The notes beneath the pieces were generated by a model that was not told the origin of the DNA, searched no databases, and saw only the letters and a list, made by a program, of their open reading frames with translations. Positions 41,278-51,480 of a DNA stretch of 64,000 bases are shown here, one piece after another (within the stretch, counting starts at the first letter, position 1; every line of letters begins with the position of its first letter). The stretch spans positions 1 to 64,000 of the forward strand of contig WGLV01000007.1 of the NCBI GenBank assembly GCA_016125385.1. The letters are read 5' to 3'. The DNA comes from a bacterium (lineage in GTDB: Bacteria > Hinthialibacterota > Hinthialibacteria > Hinthialibacterales > Hinthialibacteraceae). A program made the position numbers and the translations under genes.

Positions 41278-41919
41278 TTATTGAAGCCCGCCTCCCGACC
41301 TCATCATGATGTCTCCCTTGCTGACGATGCCGTTCGACGCGTTGTAGGGAACCCCGGCGCGGATGCCGGTGCTGGCGTATGATTCGCCGTCAGGACCGAA
41401 CGCGAACAGGATGTAACTTCCCTCGTTCAACTTGCCCACGCCTGTGCTGCCGTAATCGGCGCCCTTGATGGCGGGGTCGTTATCCACGTACAGATAAACC
41501 TCGTTGCCCTTCTGGCCGAATCGTTCCGAGTTTCCTGAACTTCGATCGCTGAGATAGTTGGGCACGAAGGGGTCTTGTGGAACCGAGCTCAGATATGAAA
41601 TCGGGCTGGTCAGCGGCGCCAATACATCGATCTGGCGGCGGGTGCCTTCGGGCAGGTCGCCCACGCCGTTGAATACGTCCTTGATTCGGTTGCGTCCGAT
41701 ATCGGTGTCGTCGTCCCAGAAATCGACCAGCAGCACGCCTCGATCGAGCCTCAGTTCCTCGATGGCGGTTGTGGTGGTCTTCATATCGGCGTAGGACCGG
41801 GCGACCTTGGCGCGAACCTGTGCGTTAAGGAAGTTGGGTACGGCGATGGCGGCGAGGATTCCAATGATCGCGACTACGATGAGCAGCTCAATGAGGGTAA
41901 AAGCGGAGCGTCGAGTCAT
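41278..41919 (-). CDS. Pseudopilin, type II secretion G-like (paralogue A)
   Basis: The 213-residue protein has a prepilin leader MTRRSA, then FTLIELLIVVAIIGILAAIA and AVPNFLNAQVRAKVARSYAD. The Glu at +5 is present; the residue before the cut is Ala in place of Gly. The mature domain is larger than E. coli GspG but similar in layout, with a GGDL/DxD-like loop region and a C-terminal segment NASNGIVSKGDIMMRSGGG. The start at 41,919 has GGAGGGAG upstream. It shares the leader, the AVPNFLNAQ helix and the NASNG(I/L).S.GD end with the neighbour at 42,092, so the two are tandem paralogues with separate terminators. Confidence 0.9.
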   Translation of the reverse strand: MTRRSAFTLIELLIVVAIIGILAAIAVPNFLNAQVRAKVARSYADMKTTTTAIEELRLDRGVLLVDFWDDDTDIGRNRIKDVFNGVGDLPEGTRRQIDVLAPLTSPISYLSSVPQDPFVPNYLSDRSSGNSERFGQKGNEVYLYVDNDPAIKGADYGSTGVGKLNEGSYILFAFGPDGESYASTGIRAGVPYNASNGIVSKGDIMMRSGGGLQ

Positions 41920-42000
41920 GGCTCCCTCCATTGAGTGTTTGATGAGCAGGTTATTACTTATATTGTAACCATTCGAGATTGAAACGAATCGCCGCTTCTG

Positions 42001-42020
42001 AAGTTATTACAAGTTATTAC
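42001..42020. repeat. 10-bp tandem repeat
   Basis: AAGTTATTAC occurs twice back to back, between the two pseudopilin genes and upstream of the 41,919 start. It may be part of the promoter of that gene. Confidence 0.7.
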
Positions 42021-42034
42021 AAACAGATGCGCAT

Positions 42035-42066
42035 AAAAAAACCCCACCGAAAACCGGTGGGGTTTT
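42035..42066 (-). terminator. Terminator of the pseudopilin at 42,092
   Basis: On the minus strand AAAACCCCACCGG/CCGGTGGGGTTTTTTT forms a clear hairpin ending in a T run, 25 bases past the stop codon. Confidence 0.88.
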
Positions 42067-42091
42067 GACGTTCGAATCTTCCCGGCGCGGC

Positions 42092-42766
42092 TTAACGTCC
42101 GCCGTGGTTATCCGTCATGAAACCGCCGCCTGAACGAAGATACAGGTCGCCGATGCTGTGCAGGCCGTTCGACGCGTCGTAGGGAATCCCCATACGGACG
42201 CCGTTCGATCCGCCGTAAACGTCCGGCGCGGCGGGGCCGAAACCGATGAGCATATAATCGCCCGGTTTCAGATTGTTTTTCGGTTCCAAGATCGTTCCGC
42301 CGTAGTCGTTGCCGGCGATTTCCGTATCGTTATCGATATACAGATACGTGTCGTTGCCCACGCGGCCGTACAACTCATTATGACCGCTGGTTTTGTCATT
42401 GATCGCGGCCGCAAATGGGTCACGAGGTACGGAAGACATATACGCGATCGGACTGGTGAGAGGCGCGAGCACGCATGTCTGGTTACGATTCCCCTGTCCA
42501 CCCGCGGAACCAACGTCGTTAAAAACGTCCTTGATCCGGTCCATACCCGTCGCGGTGTCGTCGTCCCAGAAATCGACCAGCATTTTGCCCTTATCCAGCG
42601 TGAGTTCCTGAACGGCTGTCAGGGTCGAGCGTAAATCGGCCTGCTGACGGGCGACCTTGGCTCGAATCTGTGCATTGAGGAAATTGGGGACGGCGATAGC
42701 GGCGAGAATGCCGATGATCGCAACAACGATTAGCAGTTCAATCAGGGTAAAACCGGACCTGCGCAT
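42092..42766 (-). CDS. Pseudopilin, type II secretion G-like (paralogue B)
   Basis: A 224-residue pilin-like protein with leader MRRSG and the canonical Gly before FTLIELLIVVAIIGILAAIA. AVPNFLNAQIRAKVARQQAD follows. Its body has the same layout as paralogue A (ELTLDKGKMLVDFWDDDT, CVLAPLTSPIAYMSSVPRDP, NASNGLHSIGDLYLRSGGGF). The start at 42,766 has GGGAGG upstream. The two copies keep DFWDDDT and LAPLTSPI.YLSSVP.DPF almost unchanged but vary in loops, so duplication followed by divergence is likely. In this kind of genome such pilins are numerous and may be substrate-like or minor pilins. Confidence 0.91.
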   Translation of the reverse strand: MRRSGFTLIELLIVVAIIGILAAIAVPNFLNAQIRAKVARQQADLRSTLTAVQELTLDKGKMLVDFWDDDTATGMDRIKDVFNDVGSAGGQGNRNQTCVLAPLTSPIAYMSSVPRDPFAAAINDKTSGHNELYGRVGNDTYLYIDNDTEIAGNDYGGTILEPKNNLKPGDYMLIGFGPAAPDVYGGSNGVRMGIPYDASNGLHSIGDLYLRSGGGFMTDNHGGR

Positions 42767-42894
42767 GATGAAACCTCCCACATGTTCAAATAATGTTGCA
42801 TAGGCAACAGAAAAATCATCATAAGATCAAGCGATATAATCATACCACGAATCGGGCAAAACAGTGAAGGGGGTAACAAAAAATAGTTTTCTAT

Positions 42895-44727
42895 TTAATC
42901 GATTGCCTGCTCGGAATAGGGGGTGACGACGTTGTAGGTTTTACTGATGCTTTGAATCTCTTCCATGATTTCCGGCTTTTCACCCACCTGAACCATCTGC
43001 CCAACGAGATTGTATATCTTGTGAAACGCCCAGCGCCGCGCGATCTCAAACGTTCCGTTGTCACGCTCGGGTATGGGCAGCCGCATGATGGTTTCCTTCT
43101 TCTCGTCAAAGGCCTCGCCTACCAGCCGTAACGTGAGCGAATCGAGCTCTTTGGGCAGTTTTCCCCACAGTTGCAGATCGCCCTTGAGAAACAGGTCGGG
43201 AAGCCGCTTGGGATATACCTCTCTGGTGTCGAGCTGGCCGAAATCGGCTTTGACCTGAAGCAGCACGGGGTCTTCGATGTAGCCGTAGATCGACTGGATG
43301 GTCAGGCTCAGGTCTTCACGCTCAGGCTCGAACGCGACCAGCCCGCGGTTGCGGAACGCCAGCATGTCGAGCAGATAGCGGTTCATCGGCTGGCCGGTTC
43401 CCAGGCAGAAGATCGAGGTGCTGGGCCCCAGGTGTTGAGTGAGATTATTGATAATATTGCGGCTGTCGACCACGCCTACTGTGGGGCGGCCGTCGCTGAA
43501 CAGAATCAGAATCAGAGGCCGCGCTCGCTCAACCCCGAGTTGAACCAGCGGCTCAAGCGATTTGTAAATGTCGGTGTGGCCTGACGATTCGAGGTCCTGA
43601 AGAAAGTCCCGCGCTTTTTGAACCGTGGTGGCGTCGATCGTCGCCAGCGTGTCGGTAAACATGTGGACGCTGCCTTTGAAGCCCACCACGTTAAACCGGT
43701 CGTTCGGGCGCAACCGGTCGAGCAGCGTCTCAACCTCGCGCTTGATCGAGTTAAGCCGCCGCCGCCCCATGCTGCGCGAGGCGTCGAGCACGAATACGAC
43801 GTCTTTGGGCAGCACTCGCAGGCGCTCGTCGGCTCCCTTGGGCCGAATGCGGATATGAAAGTAACCGTCGCCGCCCAGATGGTGGTAAGTTTCGAGCTGG
43901 ACGTCGAGCAAGTCGTCGAGTTTGACATACTTTTTCTCCATCTGCTCTTTGGCTTTCTGTTCAGAGGGCAGGGTGGAGGGCGCCTGGCTGGGTTGAAGCA
44001 GGTCGGGCGAGGGAAGCAGTTCGGTCACCGGCGGCAGCAGAATGGGCGCGTCATCGGGCCGGGCTTCGGGAGCGGGCGGCTCGGCGACCGCCAGCAGCGT
44101 GTCTTGAATGTCGCGCCGGACCGACGGTTCCGCGTCGAGCGACGGCGGCGCCAGGTTGGCGAGGATGCGGCGGCCCGAGCCGGTGCCCCGGCCCATCAGC
44201 GCCACTTTATTCTTCAAGCCGGGAGAATCCTGAATCGAGTCGGCCCCGGCGTTGCGCTCAAAGTCGCGCACCGCGCTCTTCCCCACATCGGTGGTGATGA
44301 GATCGCGCGCCGATTGATCGGCTGAAAACTGATCGCTGGTCAATCGCGACCGGGTGGGCAGGCTTTCATCGCCGAACTGGGGACCCGCCAGCGCGATTTC
44401 GTCCGCGACGGATCGCTGTTGCGCCCGCGATTGCTCTTCCACTTCACGCTCAAGGGCGCGTTCGCGTTCGTTCCGAAGTTGTTGCTGGGTTGGCCGTGAA
44501 ACGAAGTTGCGCGACTCAAGCCGGTCGAGCCTGACTTTGAACAGCGTTTCGAGTTTATCTTCCGTGTGGCTGGCGTCGTTGACGATGGTATTGAGCGAAA
44601 CCGCCATGAACAAGGCGTGCAGAATCAGCGACACGCCCAGCGCGATCCCCCACCGGCGGTCGAAGCCTCCGGATGATTTGCGCTGAAGCGCGGGGGCGGT
44701 CCGGGTTGCGTGTACGGCTGCGTTCAT
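42895..44727 (-). CDS. TonB-like-anchored VWA-domain protein
   Basis: A 610-residue inner-membrane protein, fourth gene of the exbB-exbD-TPR-VWA operon. After a basic N-terminus, one membrane helix (about 27-45) carries S33-x3-H37 in GVSLILHALFMAVSL, the arrangement that in TonB couples to ExbB/ExbD. A long periplasmic, charged and Pro-rich region (about 50-270) acts like a TonB/TolA linker. In place of a TonB or TolA C-terminal domain there is a beta strand region and a von Willebrand A domain (about 305-480) with complete MIDAS residues: DASRS (Asp315, Ser317, Ser319), Thr385 and Asp412 in FSDGRPT. A C-terminal domain of about 120 residues follows. The start at 44,727 lies seven bases after the TPR gene; upstream codons would overlap it. 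Confidence 0.85.
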   Translation of the reverse strand: MNAAVHATRTAPALQRKSSGGFDRRWGIALGVSLILHALFMAVSLNTIVNDASHTEDKLETLFKVRLDRLESRNFVSRPTQQQLRNERERALEREVEEQSRAQQRSVADEIALAGPQFGDESLPTRSRLTSDQFSADQSARDLITTDVGKSAVRDFERNAGADSIQDSPGLKNKVALMGRGTGSGRRILANLAPPSLDAEPSVRRDIQDTLLAVAEPPAPEARPDDAPILLPPVTELLPSPDLLQPSQAPSTLPSEQKAKEQMEKKYVKLDDLLDVQLETYHHLGGDGYFHIRIRPKGADERLRVLPKDVVFVLDASRSMGRRRLNSIKREVETLLDRLRPNDRFNVVGFKGSVHMFTDTLATIDATTVQKARDFLQDLESSGHTDIYKSLEPLVQLGVERARPLILILFSDGRPTVGVVDSRNIINNLTQHLGPSTSIFCLGTGQPMNRYLLDMLAFRNRGLVAFEPEREDLSLTIQSIYGYIEDPVLLQVKADFGQLDTREVYPKRLPDLFLKGDLQLWGKLPKELDSLTLRLVGEAFDEKKETIMRLPIPERDNGTFEIARRWAFHKIYNLVGQMVQVGEKPEIMEEIQSISKTYNVVTPYSEQAID

Positions 44728-44734
44728 ATCGCGT

Positions 44735-47212
44735 CTAATTCGTTTTGGCGGCGGGCGCGGCGATGTCTTTGTACTCCTCGCGCGCTTTCGCCGTCCAGGT
44801 CGAGTCGGGATACTTCTCCGCCAGTTCATCCATCAGCGTGGCGGCTTCGCCGGGTTGATCGAGTTTCAGGTGAGCGCCCACGGCGCGATACATGGCTTCC
44901 GGCGTCAGGCGGGGATGATCGAATAGAATCGCCACCCGCAAAAAGGCGTCGAGCGCCTCCTTGGTTTTGTTATGCCTGTCCAGCGAGCGGCCCAGGTCGA
45001 GGTATATTTTCGCTTCGAATTCCGGATCGGGGTTCGCCATGTCCTGCAGGCCGAGAAGGCTTTTTTCGAACAATTCAGCCGCTTTGGCGAAATCGCCCTT
45101 GCCTTCCAGCGCCTTGGCCAGCACCCAGTCGATTTCGGGCGTAAACAGGCTTTGGGGATATTTTTCGATGAAGGTCCGCGCGGTCTTCTCCGCGTCGTCC
45201 CAGCGTTTCAGGGCGATCAACTGGTTGCCTTGCGCGATGCGTGCGCGCTCGGTCACGGCGGGTTCGTCGTGCAGTTTCAGAATGGTTTCCGCCGTGTTGA
45301 GCGCGTCTTCATGGCGATCGTTCTCATCGGCGAACACCACCATCCAGAAGAGAATCTCCACCGGCACGTCGTTCTGCTTCGGGCCGGTCAGCACCGCCTG
45401 AAACTGGTCGTAGGCGTTCTGGTAATCCTCAGTCTGGTAATCGCAGAAGGCTCTGCGCAGTTTGACCTCTTCCGCCTGCTTGAAATCGGGATAGCGGTTC
45501 AATAACTCGCCATAGATTTCAGACGCTTTGGAGGGCAGTTCCTTCATCTCGTAGATGTACGCCGTCCAGTACAGCGCCTCCGGTTTGCGCTCATCGCCGC
45601 GTTCGGAATGAAGCAGCGCGGTCAGCGTGACGAGGGCGTCGTCGTATTGTTTCAGGTGATACTGCGCCAGCGCCTTGCGGTAGAGCGTGTCGTGCATCGA
45701 GGGCAGTTCGGGGTAGGCAGCGATCAGTTTATCGGCCAGTTCGATGGCCTGGGGATACTCCTTGGCGGCGAAGCGGGCGTTCGCCGCCCAGATCAGCGCC
45801 TGCTGGGCCCGGTCCGACCTGGAGTAATCGTTGTAATATCGCTCGAACGCCTGACTGGCTTCGGAATACTGCTCGTTGCGGTAAAGAAGATCGGCGCGCA
45901 GATACAGCGCGTCTTCATTGTACTGGCATTGTGGATCGGTCAGCTCGACCTGCTTGAGCTCTTCGATGGCGTCGCGGTAATTTTCTCGTTGCGCGTAGGT
46001 CTGCCCCAGCAGAAAATGCAGCTTTGCGGCGATGTCGGCGGCGATGCCGGTGCGCAGCAGGTTTCGGCACTCGACCTCGGCCTGATTGTAATCGCCGGAA
46101 AGGTAATACGACCACGCCAGTTGATACCAGGCCCGCGCGCGGTATTCACCCGCGTTGGGGTCGGCGATGGTCTCACGGAAAAAACCGACCGCGTCGGCGT
46201 ATTGTTTTTGCTGGTACGAACACGCGCCCTGCAGAAAGAGGATGCCGGGCAGCATGTCGGCGGGCAGGAACTGGGTTTTGAGCGCTTTCGCCACGTCGAG
46301 CGCGGCGGCGTAGTTCTCCTGCTGATATTCAGCCCAGGCGGCTCCGTATTGCGCCCGCGCGGTCTGCGATCCATCGGGGTGAGTCTGGGCGAAGGCGCGA
46401 TAGGCTTTGGCGGCGTCGGCGTACTGGTTCTGGCGGTAGAGAAGTTGCGCCGCCAGCAGCTGGGCGTCGCCCGGCAGCGAAGAGCCTTCTTCGATCTTGT
46501 AGTCGCCAGGTTTTTTCCATAATCCGTTCAACACTTCGATCGCGTCGCCGAGTCGATCCTGCTTGGCCAGCAACTCGCCCAGCAGAAAGGTGGAATACGC
46601 CGCGAAATCGCCCTTCGGATAATCCTTTTTGATGCGACGGTAAAACGTTTCGGCTTTGTCAGGCTGACCGAGCCGGTCGTAACATCGCGCTCCGTAAAAC
46701 AGAGCCGCTTCGATCAACGTCGGCGACTGGCTTTTTTCGATCACCTCAAGCAACCGGTTTAGGCCGCCTTCGGTGTCGCCGATCTTGTAGCCGATCTCGC
46801 CCAGCCGCAGCTGCGCGTCGAGCCGTTTTTCGCCTTGCGGAAACGATTCCAGCAGCTGCAACAGCGCGCCCCGCGCCTCCACCATGATGACCTTGGCGGT
46901 GAGCGGGTCCTGCTCGTTCAGGCTGGAGGCGTGCTGGTAAAGCGATTCGGCCTTGCGGAACAGCGCCGTTTCGCGGTTAGGCGAGCCCGGGTGCTTCTGC
47001 AGAAAGTCGTCATACTGGCGCGCCGCCGATTCATACATGCCGCGCTGGTAGAGGCCGTCCGCGAAGTCGAGGTCCTGCTGTTCCTGATAACTGGCGGTGT
47101 TGGTGACCGCCGCCGCCGGATTGGCGGTGGTTTGGGCGAGCGGAGAACCGCCCCCCGCCAGTGCGGCGAGCGCGAGCGTCGCGATGAGTTTCGTACGAGA
47201 GATGTCGATCAT
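44735..47212 (-). CDS. Exported TPR-repeat protein
   Basis: An 825-residue periplasmic protein with a signal peptide (ends near PLA/QTT) and about 17-20 consecutive TPR-type helical pairs covering nearly the whole length, such as YQRGMYESAARQYDDFLQKH, YRRIKKDYPKGDFAAYSTFL and YERYYNDYSRSD-type units. The pattern is like the CpoB/YbgF and BamD/YfiO group but much longer. It sits between exbD and the VWA gene in a probable operon, 19 bases after exbD and seven before the VWA gene. A role as a periplasmic scaffold linking the ExbBD motor to the cell wall is plausible. The start at 47,212 avoids overlap with exbD, but no strong ribosome site is seen. Confidence 0.85.
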   Translation of the reverse strand: MIDISRTKLIATLALAALAGGGSPLAQTTANPAAAVTNTASYQEQQDLDFADGLYQRGMYESAARQYDDFLQKHPGSPNRETALFRKAESLYQHASSLNEQDPLTAKVIMVEARGALLQLLESFPQGEKRLDAQLRLGEIGYKIGDTEGGLNRLLEVIEKSQSPTLIEAALFYGARCYDRLGQPDKAETFYRRIKKDYPKGDFAAYSTFLLGELLAKQDRLGDAIEVLNGLWKKPGDYKIEEGSSLPGDAQLLAAQLLYRQNQYADAAKAYRAFAQTHPDGSQTARAQYGAAWAEYQQENYAAALDVAKALKTQFLPADMLPGILFLQGACSYQQKQYADAVGFFRETIADPNAGEYRARAWYQLAWSYYLSGDYNQAEVECRNLLRTGIAADIAAKLHFLLGQTYAQRENYRDAIEELKQVELTDPQCQYNEDALYLRADLLYRNEQYSEASQAFERYYNDYSRSDRAQQALIWAANARFAAKEYPQAIELADKLIAAYPELPSMHDTLYRKALAQYHLKQYDDALVTLTALLHSERGDERKPEALYWTAYIYEMKELPSKASEIYGELLNRYPDFKQAEEVKLRRAFCDYQTEDYQNAYDQFQAVLTGPKQNDVPVEILFWMVVFADENDRHEDALNTAETILKLHDEPAVTERARIAQGNQLIALKRWDDAEKTARTFIEKYPQSLFTPEIDWVLAKALEGKGDFAKAAELFEKSLLGLQDMANPDPEFEAKIYLDLGRSLDRHNKTKEALDAFLRVAILFDHPRLTPEAMYRAVGAHLKLDQPGEAATLMDELAEKYPDSTWTAKAREEYKDIAAPAAKTN

Positions 47213-47231
47213 GGTTGAATGGGAGGCGCGT

Positions 47232-47669
47232 TTATTTCGCGGCCGGCCTGGTTTTGTCTTCGGGCGGCAGCGCGGCGAACGAGACGTTCCATACGCCTGA
47301 TTGCGCGCAGACGTCCAACAGGTTAATGGCGTTTTCAAACGTGGTGGCGCGGTCGCCGCGAATAATGACCGATTGGTCGGGAAAACGTTCGGCGATGCGC
47401 GACAACAGCGATTTCAGTTGCGATTCGGTGATCTCTTTCTGATTGACCACCATCGTGCCGTCAGCCTTCAGGTTGACGATCAGTTCGCCCATGGCGCGCT
47501 TGGGCGTGGTGGCTGAATCGGCGGTGGGCACGGTGATCGAAAGTTCGTTCTCCAACCGCGCGAAGACCGAGGTGGTGATAAAAAAGATCAACAGCAGAAA
47601 GATGATGTCGATCATCGGCGCCATGGGGATGGCGGGTTCTTCACGGGCGGCGCGGGAGAGAAAATTCAT
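47232..47669 (-). CDS. ExbD/TolR-family proton-channel subunit
   Basis: A 145-residue inner-membrane protein with a short cytoplasmic N-terminus, one membrane helix containing the essential Asp21 (MAPMIDIIFLLLIFFITTSV), and a periplasmic ExbD/TolR domain (LENELSITVPTADS, GELIVNLKADGTMVVNQ, VIIRGDRATTFENAINLLDVC). With ExbB it forms a proton-driven motor. It lies 16 bases after exbB on the same strand. ExbD and TolR cannot be separated here. The usual partners are TonB or TolA; here the likely partner is the VWA protein downstream. Confidence 0.95.
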   Translation of the reverse strand: MNFLSRAAREEPAIPMAPMIDIIFLLLIFFITTSVFARLENELSITVPTADSATTPKRAMGELIVNLKADGTMVVNQKEITESQLKSLLSRIAERFPDQSVIIRGDRATTFENAINLLDVCAQSGVWNVSFAALPPEDKTRPAAK

Positions 47670-47685
47670 GGCGAGTCGTCTCCCA

Positions 47686-48528
47686 TCAGGCTCGGGGGGC
47701 CGGTTTGGCCGCCGACGGCGCCTTGCGAACGGTCTTGCGCGTCGTGGTTTTCTGCGGCGAATGAGCGATCAGGTCGGCGGTTTCGACGGCGATCTCTTCC
47801 ACGCGCGCCACCAGCCCCTCCAGCTTGCCCCGGAAAAAGAAGAACAAGCCCATACTGGGGATGGCGACGATCAGCCCGGCGGCGGTGGTCACCAGCGCCT
47901 GCGCCACCGCGCTGGCCAGCGCCACCGGTTTGACCGCGCTGATGTCGAACGCGATAAAATTGAACGCCTGAATCATGCCGAGCACCGTGCCGAGCAAGCC
48001 CAGCATGGGCGCGATGGTGGCGATGTCGGATAGATAGCGCGCCTTGCGCATCATTGACTCCGCTTCGCGGCGGCCCACGGTCTCCATCGCTTCGGAGGCG
48101 TGTTCGGGCGAGCTGGCGGCGTGAGCGGCTCCCGCCGCGATCACCTTGGCCAGCATGGCGTTTGACCGTGAACACAACCGGGCGATCTCGTCGAGCTTTC
48201 GCTCGCGGGCGTAATTTCGGATCTGTGAAACCAGCGCGGGCGGCGCCAGCTGTTTTTCGGTAAAGATAAAGAGGTAATACACCGCCAGCGCCAGCGTCAG
48301 AATCGACAGCGCTCCAATAACCGCCATGACCCATCCACCCGCCTTGAGAAGGTCGAACAGCGTCATGCCGGAAGCTGCGTCCTCCGCCGCCGTCTCCACC
48401 GCGCCGCTGGCGGACGCGATGGTTCCGGGAGCCGCCTGGCCGAGCGCGTGCAGCGCCGGGGCGATGACCAGAAACAGAAACAGGCATGAGGCGGCGATCG
48501 TCAGATACGGGCGTCGGCGATGGTTCAT
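47686..48528 (-). CDS. ExbB/TolQ/MotA-family proton-channel protein
   Basis: A 280-residue inner-membrane protein. An extra N-terminal hydrophobic segment (TIAASCLFLFLVIAPALHAL) may be a signal sequence, as in long ExbB proteins. TM1 lies at about 60-85 (MAVIGALSILTLALAVYYLF), followed by a long cytoplasmic loop and the two conserved helices IAPMLGLLGTVLGMIQAF and AQALVTTAAGLIVAIPSMGL, whose threonines line the proton path. The lysine/arginine-rich tail (TTTRKTVRKAPSAAKP) is cytoplasmic. The start at 48,528 has AAGGA nine bases upstream; the longer frame upstream has no family match. It is the first gene of the four-gene operon. Confidence 0.94.
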   Translation of the reverse strand: MNHRRRPYLTIAASCLFLFLVIAPALHALGQAAPGTIASASGAVETAAEDAASGMTLFDLLKAGGWVMAVIGALSILTLALAVYYLFIFTEKQLAPPALVSQIRNYARERKLDEIARLCSRSNAMLAKVIAAGAAHAASSPEHASEAMETVGRREAESMMRKARYLSDIATIAPMLGLLGTVLGMIQAFNFIAFDISAVKPVALASAVAQALVTTAAGLIVAIPSMGLFFFFRGKLEGLVARVEEIAVETADLIAHSPQKTTTRKTVRKAPSAAKPAPRA

Positions 48529-48993
48529 TCGTCGAAATCCTTTGCGAAGAGATAGGGCGTCGTTCGATTGTTGGGGTGGGCGAAGCGGCCGAATGGATGA
48601 GAAACGCGATTCGGGCTGAGCCGGCGAACGCGCCGCGCCCGCCCCGGAAAAATCATTGTACGCTAAATGACCCGCCGCCAAAGCATCGTTCGGATCGAAC
48701 GGAAAACCTTGCCGCGCATACACGTACTCTAAACGAAAAAAACGGTCCAAACAACTTTCGGTAACGGGATGAAAAAGGCGATTCCCCGTTTTTAGTGGGC
48801 ATTGCGAGGACGTATCATCTGAATACGATTCAGCCCATTTCTCAAGTGAGCGCGAATTCTCTCCAACTGAATACGTAAAAACCGGGCTGTGAGTTGCGAA
48901 AAAAAGGATACAATGAGGCGATTCCATCCGTTTATTCCGTTGAACCCGCTGACATGGCGGCGCCATGACTGTGGTTGAGGGAGGGTGAACCGG
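48529..48993. other. Divergent regulatory region between exbB and the MscK-like gene
   Basis: No gene. It should drive both transcripts. A TACAAT box at 48,909-48,914 is a candidate -10 for the plus-strand channel gene, with no good -35. No promoter for the exbB operon is obvious. Confidence 0.5.
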
Positions 48994-51480
48994 GTGAAGC
49001 CGGTCTATTTCAATCGATTCATGTATGTATCCGCGGTCAATTCGCCCGCGTTGCGCCGTTTGGTTACGGTCTGCCTGTTCGCCGCATCGCTTGCCTGTAC
49101 CCCTCTCCTGCCTGTGGGAGCTCAGGCGGTCAGCGGCGTAACCCGCGAAGCCACCGTCTCGTCAGCCACCCCGCAGAATCGCGTTACCGCTGAACAGATC
49201 GAACAGCGGCGTCAGGATATTCAGGCGCAAGCCGGCAATATTCAAAAAAACCTTGAAGCCATCCAGCAGCGCCTGATCGAAGCCCAGCAGAACGTGGAAG
49301 CCGCGCGAAAAAAAGCGGAATCCGCCCAGAACGCAACGGCGGACGCCGTCGCCGAGTTTGATGCCGCCCAGCGGGCGCTCGACCGCCTGAATGAAGTTCA
49401 GCCTCCCGCGTTGACCGATCTTTATAAGCAACAATTACAGGTGATGCAGCGTATCGGTCTGCTTTACGACCGTCAGATCGCCGATCTCAACCAGGCGCAG
49501 ACCCTGCGCCAGACGCGCGCGCAACTGGATGAAAGTCTTGAAACGCTGCGCCGCGATGGACCGCCCGAAAAGCCGCCATACACCTTTCTTCAACTCGACG
49601 CCCTTCGCGATGAGGCCGCCATTCAGGCTGAAAAAAGCAGGGCGGCGGCCGATGCGCTGAAAACGGCGGAAGATCAGCTCCTGCAGGCGCGCAAACAGGC
49701 GGATGAAAACGACGCCGCGCTCAGCCTGCTCAAGGAAAGTTTTGAAAACGTCGCCGGACCTCCCAGCCCGCTTGATTCGGCCCGGCTGAGCCTCGCGCTG
49801 CTTGAAAAACGCCGGGCGCAGGAAGCCGTTCTGCTGGGAGAACTCGACCGCGATAACCAGCGCCTCAATCGTGAAATCGCAGAAAAGCAGCAGGCGTTGC
49901 TCGATCGGCGCGTAGAGCTCATTCAGAAAGAGACGCTGTTCCGCGAGGCGGAACTGAACGAGCAGCTTGATCGCTTGCAGGCGGAAGGCGACGCGCTTGA
50001 AGATCAGGTCGCCAAGGTGGTCGACGCGCAGAATAAAGCCGTCATTCAACTCGACGCCGCCCGCCGCAAAAGCGCCGCCGAACCGAGCCCCGTCAATCAG
50101 GAAACCGAACTCGCCTGTCAGCTTGAACGCGACGGTCTGCAGAAGCAGATCGAGTTTCTCAATGAGCGCCGCGGCTGGGTCAATGAGCGCATCGAACTCT
50201 GGAAGCGGCGATACGCCGTGTTTAACAACACCGCCACGCCCAAAGAACTGCGCGACTGGCTTGAGCATTCAAAAGACGCCGCCGCCGAAATCGAAAAACG
50301 CATTCCCGTGTTGCGCGACGCCGTGTTCGCCGAGGGCAAAAACCGCAACACCATTCAGGCGAAACTCGAAAACGTAAAAGACGACGCCGCGCTGCAGAAA
50401 ATTATTCAGCGTCAGATCGACGCTGAGGCCAAACTCATCCAATACTATTCCGAATACATCTCCGCGTATGACAACCTGCGCCGGCTTCACGTCAAACTGA
50501 GCAACGAAATTCAGAAAGCGACTGAAACCTGGTCGCTGAGCGAGGCGATCGAGGTCGCGGGCGAGAAGATCGGCGCCGTGCTCGATTACTCGCTGATGAA
50601 TTCACGTAACGAAGACGACGAGATCGTGGCGGTGCTGACCGTCCGCAAGGTGGTCTACGCGGTCATCTATCTTGTGATCGGCTTGTGGTTGGCGCGCTGG
50701 ATCAGCGTATGGCTGTTTCATCACCTGCTCCAGCGCTTCGGCGTCCACGAGGGCGCGGCGGTTGCGCTGCAGAAGCTGGCGTATTATCTGTTGCTGGTCA
50801 TCGTGATCAGTTACACCCTCAAGGCGGTTAACATCCCGCTCACCGCGTTCGCCTTTCTGGGCGGCGCGCTCGCCATCGGCATCGGGTTCGGCTCTCAGAA
50901 TATCCTGAACAATTTTATCAGCGGGCTGATTCTGCTGATGGAGCGTCAGGTACGCGTAGGCGATCTGATCCAGATCGAAGGCACGTCTGGCCGCGTGTTA
51001 AGCATTGGCGCGCGTTGCACCAAGGTGTTGACGTTCGACAACATCGATCTGCTCATCCCCAACAGCACCCTGCTTGAGACGCGCGTGATCAACATGACGC
51101 TGAGCGACAACGTGATCCGCGCGTCGGTCAGCGTCGGCGTGGCGTATGGAACCAACACCCGCGACGCCGCCAAACTGATTCTCAAGGCGGTTGAAGAACA
51201 CGGCCTGATACTCAAACACCCTGAACCCTATGTCCTGTTTGAGTCGTTTGGCGACAACTCGCTTAATTTCCTCGTTTATTTCTGGGTGCAGATGATCGAG
51301 CGCAACAACAGACTGGTTATTCAGAGCGACATTCGCCATCGCATCAACCGCCTCTTTGAAGACGCGGGCATCGTCATTGCATTCCCGCAGCGCGACGTTC
51401 ATCTCGACGCCGGCCATCCCATCCCGATCCGCATGGTGCGGGATGATGATTCATCCGGCTCGGGCGGCGCTTCCGCATAA
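48994..51480 (+). CDS. MscK-like mechanosensitive channel with long periplasmic coiled coil
   Basis: An 828-residue inner-membrane channel of the large MscS subgroup, opening under osmotic tension. A signal peptide ends near VGA/QAV. Residues about 60-480 are a coiled-coil-rich periplasmic region (for example IQAQAGNIQKNLEAIQQRLI). Membrane helices follow from about 545, and the MscS core reads FLGGALAIGIGFGSQNILNN, then FISGLILLMERQVRVGDLIQI and LLIPNSTLLETRVIN. The C-terminal cytoplasmic domain is short. A GTG at 48,994 with GGAGG at nine bases is preferred; a GTG at 48,985 abuts the site, and an ATG at 49,021 would shorten the signal peptide. It is divergent from the ExbB operon. Confidence 0.92.
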   Translation: MKPVYFNRFMYVSAVNSPALRRLVTVCLFAASLACTPLLPVGAQAVSGVTREATVSSATPQNRVTAEQIEQRRQDIQAQAGNIQKNLEAIQQRLIEAQQNVEAARKKAESAQNATADAVAEFDAAQRALDRLNEVQPPALTDLYKQQLQVMQRIGLLYDRQIADLNQAQTLRQTRAQLDESLETLRRDGPPEKPPYTFLQLDALRDEAAIQAEKSRAAADALKTAEDQLLQARKQADENDAALSLLKESFENVAGPPSPLDSARLSLALLEKRRAQEAVLLGELDRDNQRLNREIAEKQQALLDRRVELIQKETLFREAELNEQLDRLQAEGDALEDQVAKVVDAQNKAVIQLDAARRKSAAEPSPVNQETELACQLERDGLQKQIEFLNERRGWVNERIELWKRRYAVFNNTATPKELRDWLEHSKDAAAEIEKRIPVLRDAVFAEGKNRNTIQAKLENVKDDAALQKIIQRQIDAEAKLIQYYSEYISAYDNLRRLHVKLSNEIQKATETWSLSEAIEVAGEKIGAVLDYSLMNSRNEDDEIVAVLTVRKVVYAVIYLVIGLWLARWISVWLFHHLLQRFGVHEGAAVALQKLAYYLLLVIVISYTLKAVNIPLTAFAFLGGALAIGIGFGSQNILNNFISGLILLMERQVRVGDLIQIEGTSGRVLSIGARCTKVLTFDNIDLLIPNSTLLETRVINMTLSDNVIRASVSVGVAYGTNTRDAAKLILKAVEEHGLILKHPEPYVLFESFGDNSLNFLVYFWVQMIERNNRLVIQSDIRHRINRLFEDAGIVIAFPQRDVHLDAGHPIPIRMVRDDDSSGSGGASA

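Follow-up and report, generated by a model that had tools for sequence, protein, structure and literature searches.

Organization of the operon

The window analysed here is a stretch of 64,000 nucleotides from a bacterium of the Hinthialibacterota (assembly GCA_016125385.1, contig WGLV01000007.1, positions 1 to 64,000). Between positions 48528 and 42895 it carries four genes, all on the minus strand, in the order exbB, exbD, TPR and VWA, separated by intergenic gaps of 16, 19 and 7 bases. A prior sequence-only reading had described four same-direction genes with these gaps; its coordinates and gaps proved exact, and Pfam matched all four families. The exbB gene (47686..48528, minus strand) encodes an ExbB/TolQ-type proton channel subunit of 280 amino acids (Pfam MotA_ExbB, E 8.9e-27) with a signal-like N-terminus and a periplasmic extension. 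Its product can be aligned with solved TolQ and ExbB chains and keeps the pore threonines of GTV and TTA and the proline after AI. The exbD gene (47232..47669, minus strand), of which the operon holds one copy, encodes 145 amino acids (Pfam ExbD, E 8.9e-27), and alignment with E. coli ExbD (PDB 6tyi) places the membrane Asp21 in its product.

The third gene (44735..47212, minus strand) encodes a TPR protein of 825 amino acids (Pfam TPR_6, 1e-43). Comparison of N-termini by eye indicated a Sec-type signal and no lipobox. AlphaFold2 modelled the protein as a single long superhelix of approximately 40 helices (mean pLDDT 89), and a Foldseek search with this model returned generic superhelix matches only, among them the Campylobacter flagellar scaffold 9hmf. 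The last gene (42895..44727, minus strand) encodes the VWA force-transducer-like protein of 610 amino acids (Pfam VWA, 5.3e-15). The idea that this gene might have its own promoter, raised earlier as a possible objection to a four-gene unit, found no support, as the gap before it is 7 bases, promoter-like sites occur at chance level and none of them lies upstream of the VWA start.

Anatomy of the VWA protein

The VWA protein begins with a single membrane helix (residues 24-46; 44590..44658, minus strand), identified by hydropathy and modelled over the same residues by AlphaFold2. The helix carries Ser33 and His37 exactly where the sequence-only reading had put them, and it carries no Asp. His37 is invariant (11/11) and Ser33 is present in 10/11 rows of an 11-row alignment (A1). 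The proposed likeness to the TonB helix motif holds in part: the SHLS motif retains its Ser and His but not its Leu (H+7) and second Ser (H+11). These two positions are Ser and Ile in the window and are unconserved among relatives, in which H+7 is usually Ser. The Leu and second Ser are reported as a feature of 'many' vWA force transducers and are not stated to be obligatory (PMC12204202), and this half of the motif is poorly conserved in Ton systems as well (PMC12215075).

The membrane helix is followed by a charged and proline-rich linker (residues 47-266; 43930..44589, minus strand), predicted to be disordered apart from one helix at residues 81-109. Its length is about 200 residues, and pLDDT in the AlphaFold2 model is mainly below 50 across residues 47-254, in keeping with the long linker proposed earlier. 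Within it lies a D-box-like strand, FKVRL (residues 63-67; 44527..44541, minus strand), that starts 26 residues past His37. The D-box of TonB (I45-T51) has an alternating hydrophobic/polar pattern and starts with I45 at His20 +25. Such an alternating strand begins +24 to +27 from the His position in 16/18 vWA relatives and, at that spacing, in 19/20 members of a second phylum, while a comparable strand occurs elsewhere in the linker at a background rate of 2.6% per comparable window; these frequencies are not p-values, because the relatives are non-independent samples.

From residue 267 onward AlphaFold2 modelled the protein confidently as a VWA domain (residues 309-470; 43318..43803, minus strand; Pfam 5.3e-15) and a C-terminal beta/alpha domain (42928..43317, minus strand) of the kind found in inter-alpha-trypsin inhibitor heavy chains. 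The MIDAS residues are complete, as had been claimed: D315, S317 and S319 (43771-43785), T385 (43573-43575) and D412 (43492-43494), all encoded on the minus strand, are invariant in the 11-row alignment and were found in all relatives read, partly by eye. Residues 252-607 match ITIH4 in a phmmer search (3e-29), and among solved structures the nearest folds are those of inter-alpha-trypsin inhibitor heavy chains (ITIH1, 6fpy; Foldseek 3.4e-23). The fold of the VWA and C-terminal domains and the MIDAS are thus shared with the heavy chains; unlike them, the bacterial protein has no VIT domain and is joined to a putative motor-docking helix. Pfam detected no TonB_C match in the VWA protein.

Other motor systems in the genome

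The genome maintains further members of the ExbB/TolQ/MotA superfamily. One contig (C22) holds a separate tolQ-tolR-tolA-tolB-pal locus, a second (C48) holds an exbB-exbB-exbD-tonB locus close to a plug-domain receptor, and a third (C5) holds MotA with two OmpA-domain genes. The TonB_C matches of the genome sit on C48 and C22. Together with the operon, these loci (L036-L038) bring the genome to at least four motor systems of the superfamily. As the Ton and Tol-Pal loci are complete and separate, the vWA arm is an additional machine that replaces neither.

Conservation of the operon

The gene-neighbourhood comparison suggested by the sequence-only reading recovered the same arrangement well beyond the window. 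The VWA gene is present in every searched genome of the window's class, and the full exbB-exbD-TPR-VWA order is found in most genomes of the class where contigs permit. In a second phylum (G290, G153) the VWA gene was detected in 58/68 genomes, including 37/38 good genomes, with one match per genome at the cut-off used, and all four genes stood in order on one strand in 22/22 loci examined with enough flank. Because the order recurs both in the window's class and in another phylum, it is not due to chance. In one genome (G004) a 142-aa ORF resembling a PIN-domain protein lies between the exbD and TPR genes (L040:9535-9963).

Four genomes (G005, G010, G012 and G013) keep the TPR and VWA genes together and carry an exbBD pair of the operon type elsewhere. 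In the exbD tree the distant G005 sequence nests within the operon clade with good support; all operon-type exbD sequences form one group with weak support (62/77). The operon is also complete in a divergent member found in a different genome (L063). Seven loci from small genomes of a third phylum (L187-L193) mostly show a TPR-VWA pair and the x3-H helix, with no adjacent exbBD and no D-box-like strand, and may be a distant offshoot of this system.

Two kinds of match were set aside. A 1564-aa frame (L048) that looked like a TPR-VWA fusion is probably a frameshift or an overlap rather than a real fusion, since the TPR end is out of frame and is followed by a normal VWA start with SLLIH. VIT-VWA proteins, with neither the helix nor the operon, account for the many matches of approximately 740 aa in other genomes; they were left out of the counts. 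Roughly 1 kb upstream of one such gene (G097), beyond an unrelated ORF, there is an ExbB-like ORF; ExbD was not detected at the locus (L114:2575-6270).

Coevolution of the helix with ExbB

Cryo-EM structures show TonB Ser16/His20 touching ExbB Ser34/Trp38 and TolA Ser18/His22 touching TolQ Ser28/Trp32 (PMC12215075). Mapping through the genome's own TolQ, itself aligned with solved TolQ, placed ExbB Ser75 of the operon (codon at 48304..48306, minus strand) at E. coli TolQ Ser28 and ExbB Ser34, the transducer-helix contact. The counterpart of ExbB Trp38 is Leu79 in the window, and the Trp is not conserved. His at position 37 of the VWA protein is not universal either, being replaced by Tyr in 23/54 rows. 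Across the 54 operons readable at both sites, the pairs of VWA residue 37 and ExbB residue 75 were His-Ser (26), His-Gly (4), Tyr-Gly (22), Tyr-Ala (1) and Gln-Gly (1), with no Tyr-Ser. Tyr therefore seems to be tolerated only when it faces a small ExbB residue, because His was found opposite Gly but Tyr never opposite Ser.

The association was evaluated on a phylogeny computed from TPR, VWA C-terminal and ExbD columns that excluded both trait sites. The His/Tyr site changed 7 times on this tree, and well-supported branches force at least 5 changes in the Tyr label. The Ser/Gly site changed 6 times, with at least 4 forced. Pagel's dependent model was preferred (LR 23.5, p = 1e-4). An underpowered independent-pairs sign test, with 5 pairs, gave a mean of 2.2 concordant and 0 discordant. 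As a control for specificity, all 1685 columns of the four genes were ranked by association with the His/Tyr state; the ExbB Ser75 column came first and Ile76 second. This evolutionary evidence suggests that the vWA helix occupies the position of TonB on ExbB.

Comparison with known systems

The sequence-only reading held that known analogues end in different domains. That statement has been overtaken by Williams-Jones et al. (June 2025; PMC12204202), who predicted 'vWA force transducers' of this architecture and gene neighbourhood, with function unknown. The idea of a motor-driven arm is sound, but it was previously published as a prediction. Judged on architecture and gene neighbourhood as published, the window's protein resembles the Tichowtungia-type members in its SHLS-type Ser/His helix, disordered motor-box linker and vWA end domain, and in its TPR, tolQ-like and tolR-like neighbours. 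It differs in several respects. The tolR-like genes are often paired in the vWA neighbourhoods of the PVC group (PMC12204202), whereas the present operon has a single exbD. The window's lineage appears to lie outside the phyla listed there (Proteobacteria, Planctomycetes, Verrucomicrobia, Bacteroidetes and Rhodothermaota), of which the second phylum with the operon could be one. Tichowtungia is an example without discernible TolA and TonB, unlike the window's genome with its Ton and Tol-Pal systems. Finally, in many relatives of the window's protein the His is replaced by Tyr and ExbB carries Gly. The protein is a conserved, motor-coupled vWA arm belonging to the family predicted in 2025; it shows a natural switch at the interface, and the residue-level support is new.

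The operon shares with TonB-ExbB-ExbD the motor, the S-x3-H helix, an equally spaced D-box-like strand and a long linker. It departs from that system in having a VWA module in place of TonB_C, a TPR partner and only half of the SHLS motif. With Tol-Pal (TolQRA) it shares the motor superfamily and transducer topology, but it has no TolB, Pal or TolA C-terminal domain.

Proposed mechanism and alternatives

With gene order, domain anatomy, conservation, D-box spacing, coevolution and coexistence with Ton and Tol-Pal observed as above, the best-supported reading is a proton-driven arm bearing a VWA domain and accompanied by a TPR partner, as was proposed from the sequence at the outset; the residue-level coevolution backs its coupling to the motor. 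We consider it probable that the operon specifies a dedicated trans-envelope machine that runs on protons and has a VWA arm, working in the following steps. ExbB and ExbD would form the inner-membrane motor. The VWA protein would act as the force-transducing arm, its membrane helix docking at the TonB/TolA site of ExbB, as coevolution suggests. The strand just past the membrane, by its motif and spacing, appears placed for capture by the ExbD periplasmic dimer in the manner of the TonB D-box. Carried by the flexible linker, the VWA module with its ITIH-like fold and MIDAS would cross the periplasm. The TPR superhelix, as constant partner of the VWA protein, is probably a scaffold or load adaptor, judging from gene linkage. 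Proton flow would then pull or release the VWA module, and the MIDAS metal would grip a partner. The terms 'adhesion domain' and 'TPR scaffold' are putative labels. Regarding the load, we tentatively suggest a contact with the outer membrane or with peptidoglycan that organises the envelope and is distinct from Ton import and Tol-Pal.

Other tasks for the arm appear less plausible. Sharing its motor class and docking geometry with TonB, the arm might energise an outer-membrane transporter or secretion channel through a MIDAS grip instead of a Ton box. We regard this as unlikely, given that the genome encodes a distinct Ton system, including TonB and plug-domain receptors, and that the relatives examined show no transporter linked to the operon. 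It might also drive a surface adhesin or gliding cycle, with the VWA module within, or pulling on, a focal adhesion, a role suggested in PMC12204202 by analogy with a Myxococcus VWA adhesin and in line with the adhesion precedent for VWA/MIDAS domains. The VWA domain is, however, anchored to the inner membrane, Agl/Glt-type genes were not seen next to the operon, and near-universality across a whole phylum fits a housekeeping role better, so that we consider this improbable.

A different proposal concerns the VWA protein itself, the force transmission of which is deduced: it might be a passive or regulatory partner of ExbBD, or replace ExbD as in the second published TolQ-vWA family. In that TolQ-only TPH-vWA family an Asp-bearing pore helix occurs without exbD or tolR (PMC12204202), whereas the operon has ExbD with Asp21 and a VWA helix without Asp. 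Since a helix residue also coevolves with the transducer-docking site of ExbB, we find a passive, regulatory or ExbD-replacing role very unlikely.

Few tasks powered by ExbB/ExbD motors have been characterised. A conserved vWA arm alongside Ton and Tol-Pal implies another energised process in the diderm envelope. On balance we favour the view that it represents a third envelope arm driven by protons, working independently of Ton and Tol-Pal, core and near-universal in at least two candidate phyla, and that its docking interface was repeatedly rebuilt, a His facing ExbB Ser giving way to a Tyr facing ExbB Gly. If so, a structural equivalent can stand in for the His that is essential in this class of motor. 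Because nature already offers the switch from His/Ser to Tyr/Gly, paired mutations could directly test the motor-transducer interface and what the essential histidine of TonB and TolA does.

Genes flanking the operon

The neighbourhood of the operon yielded no conserved gene for an outer-membrane partner. Upstream of exbB, on the opposite strand, lies a long gene for an MscS-type channel (window 48985-51480) whose N-terminal coiled region is large; the relatives' flanking loci gave no homolog of this gene. Two pilin-like (N_methyl) genes lie directly downstream of the operon (window 41278-42781), and a related gene is located just downstream of the VWA gene in G001, G002, G004 and G005. The downstream pilin-like gene was rejected as a member of the operon on account of its roughly 100 paralogs in the genome, in which 108 matches to the family were counted.
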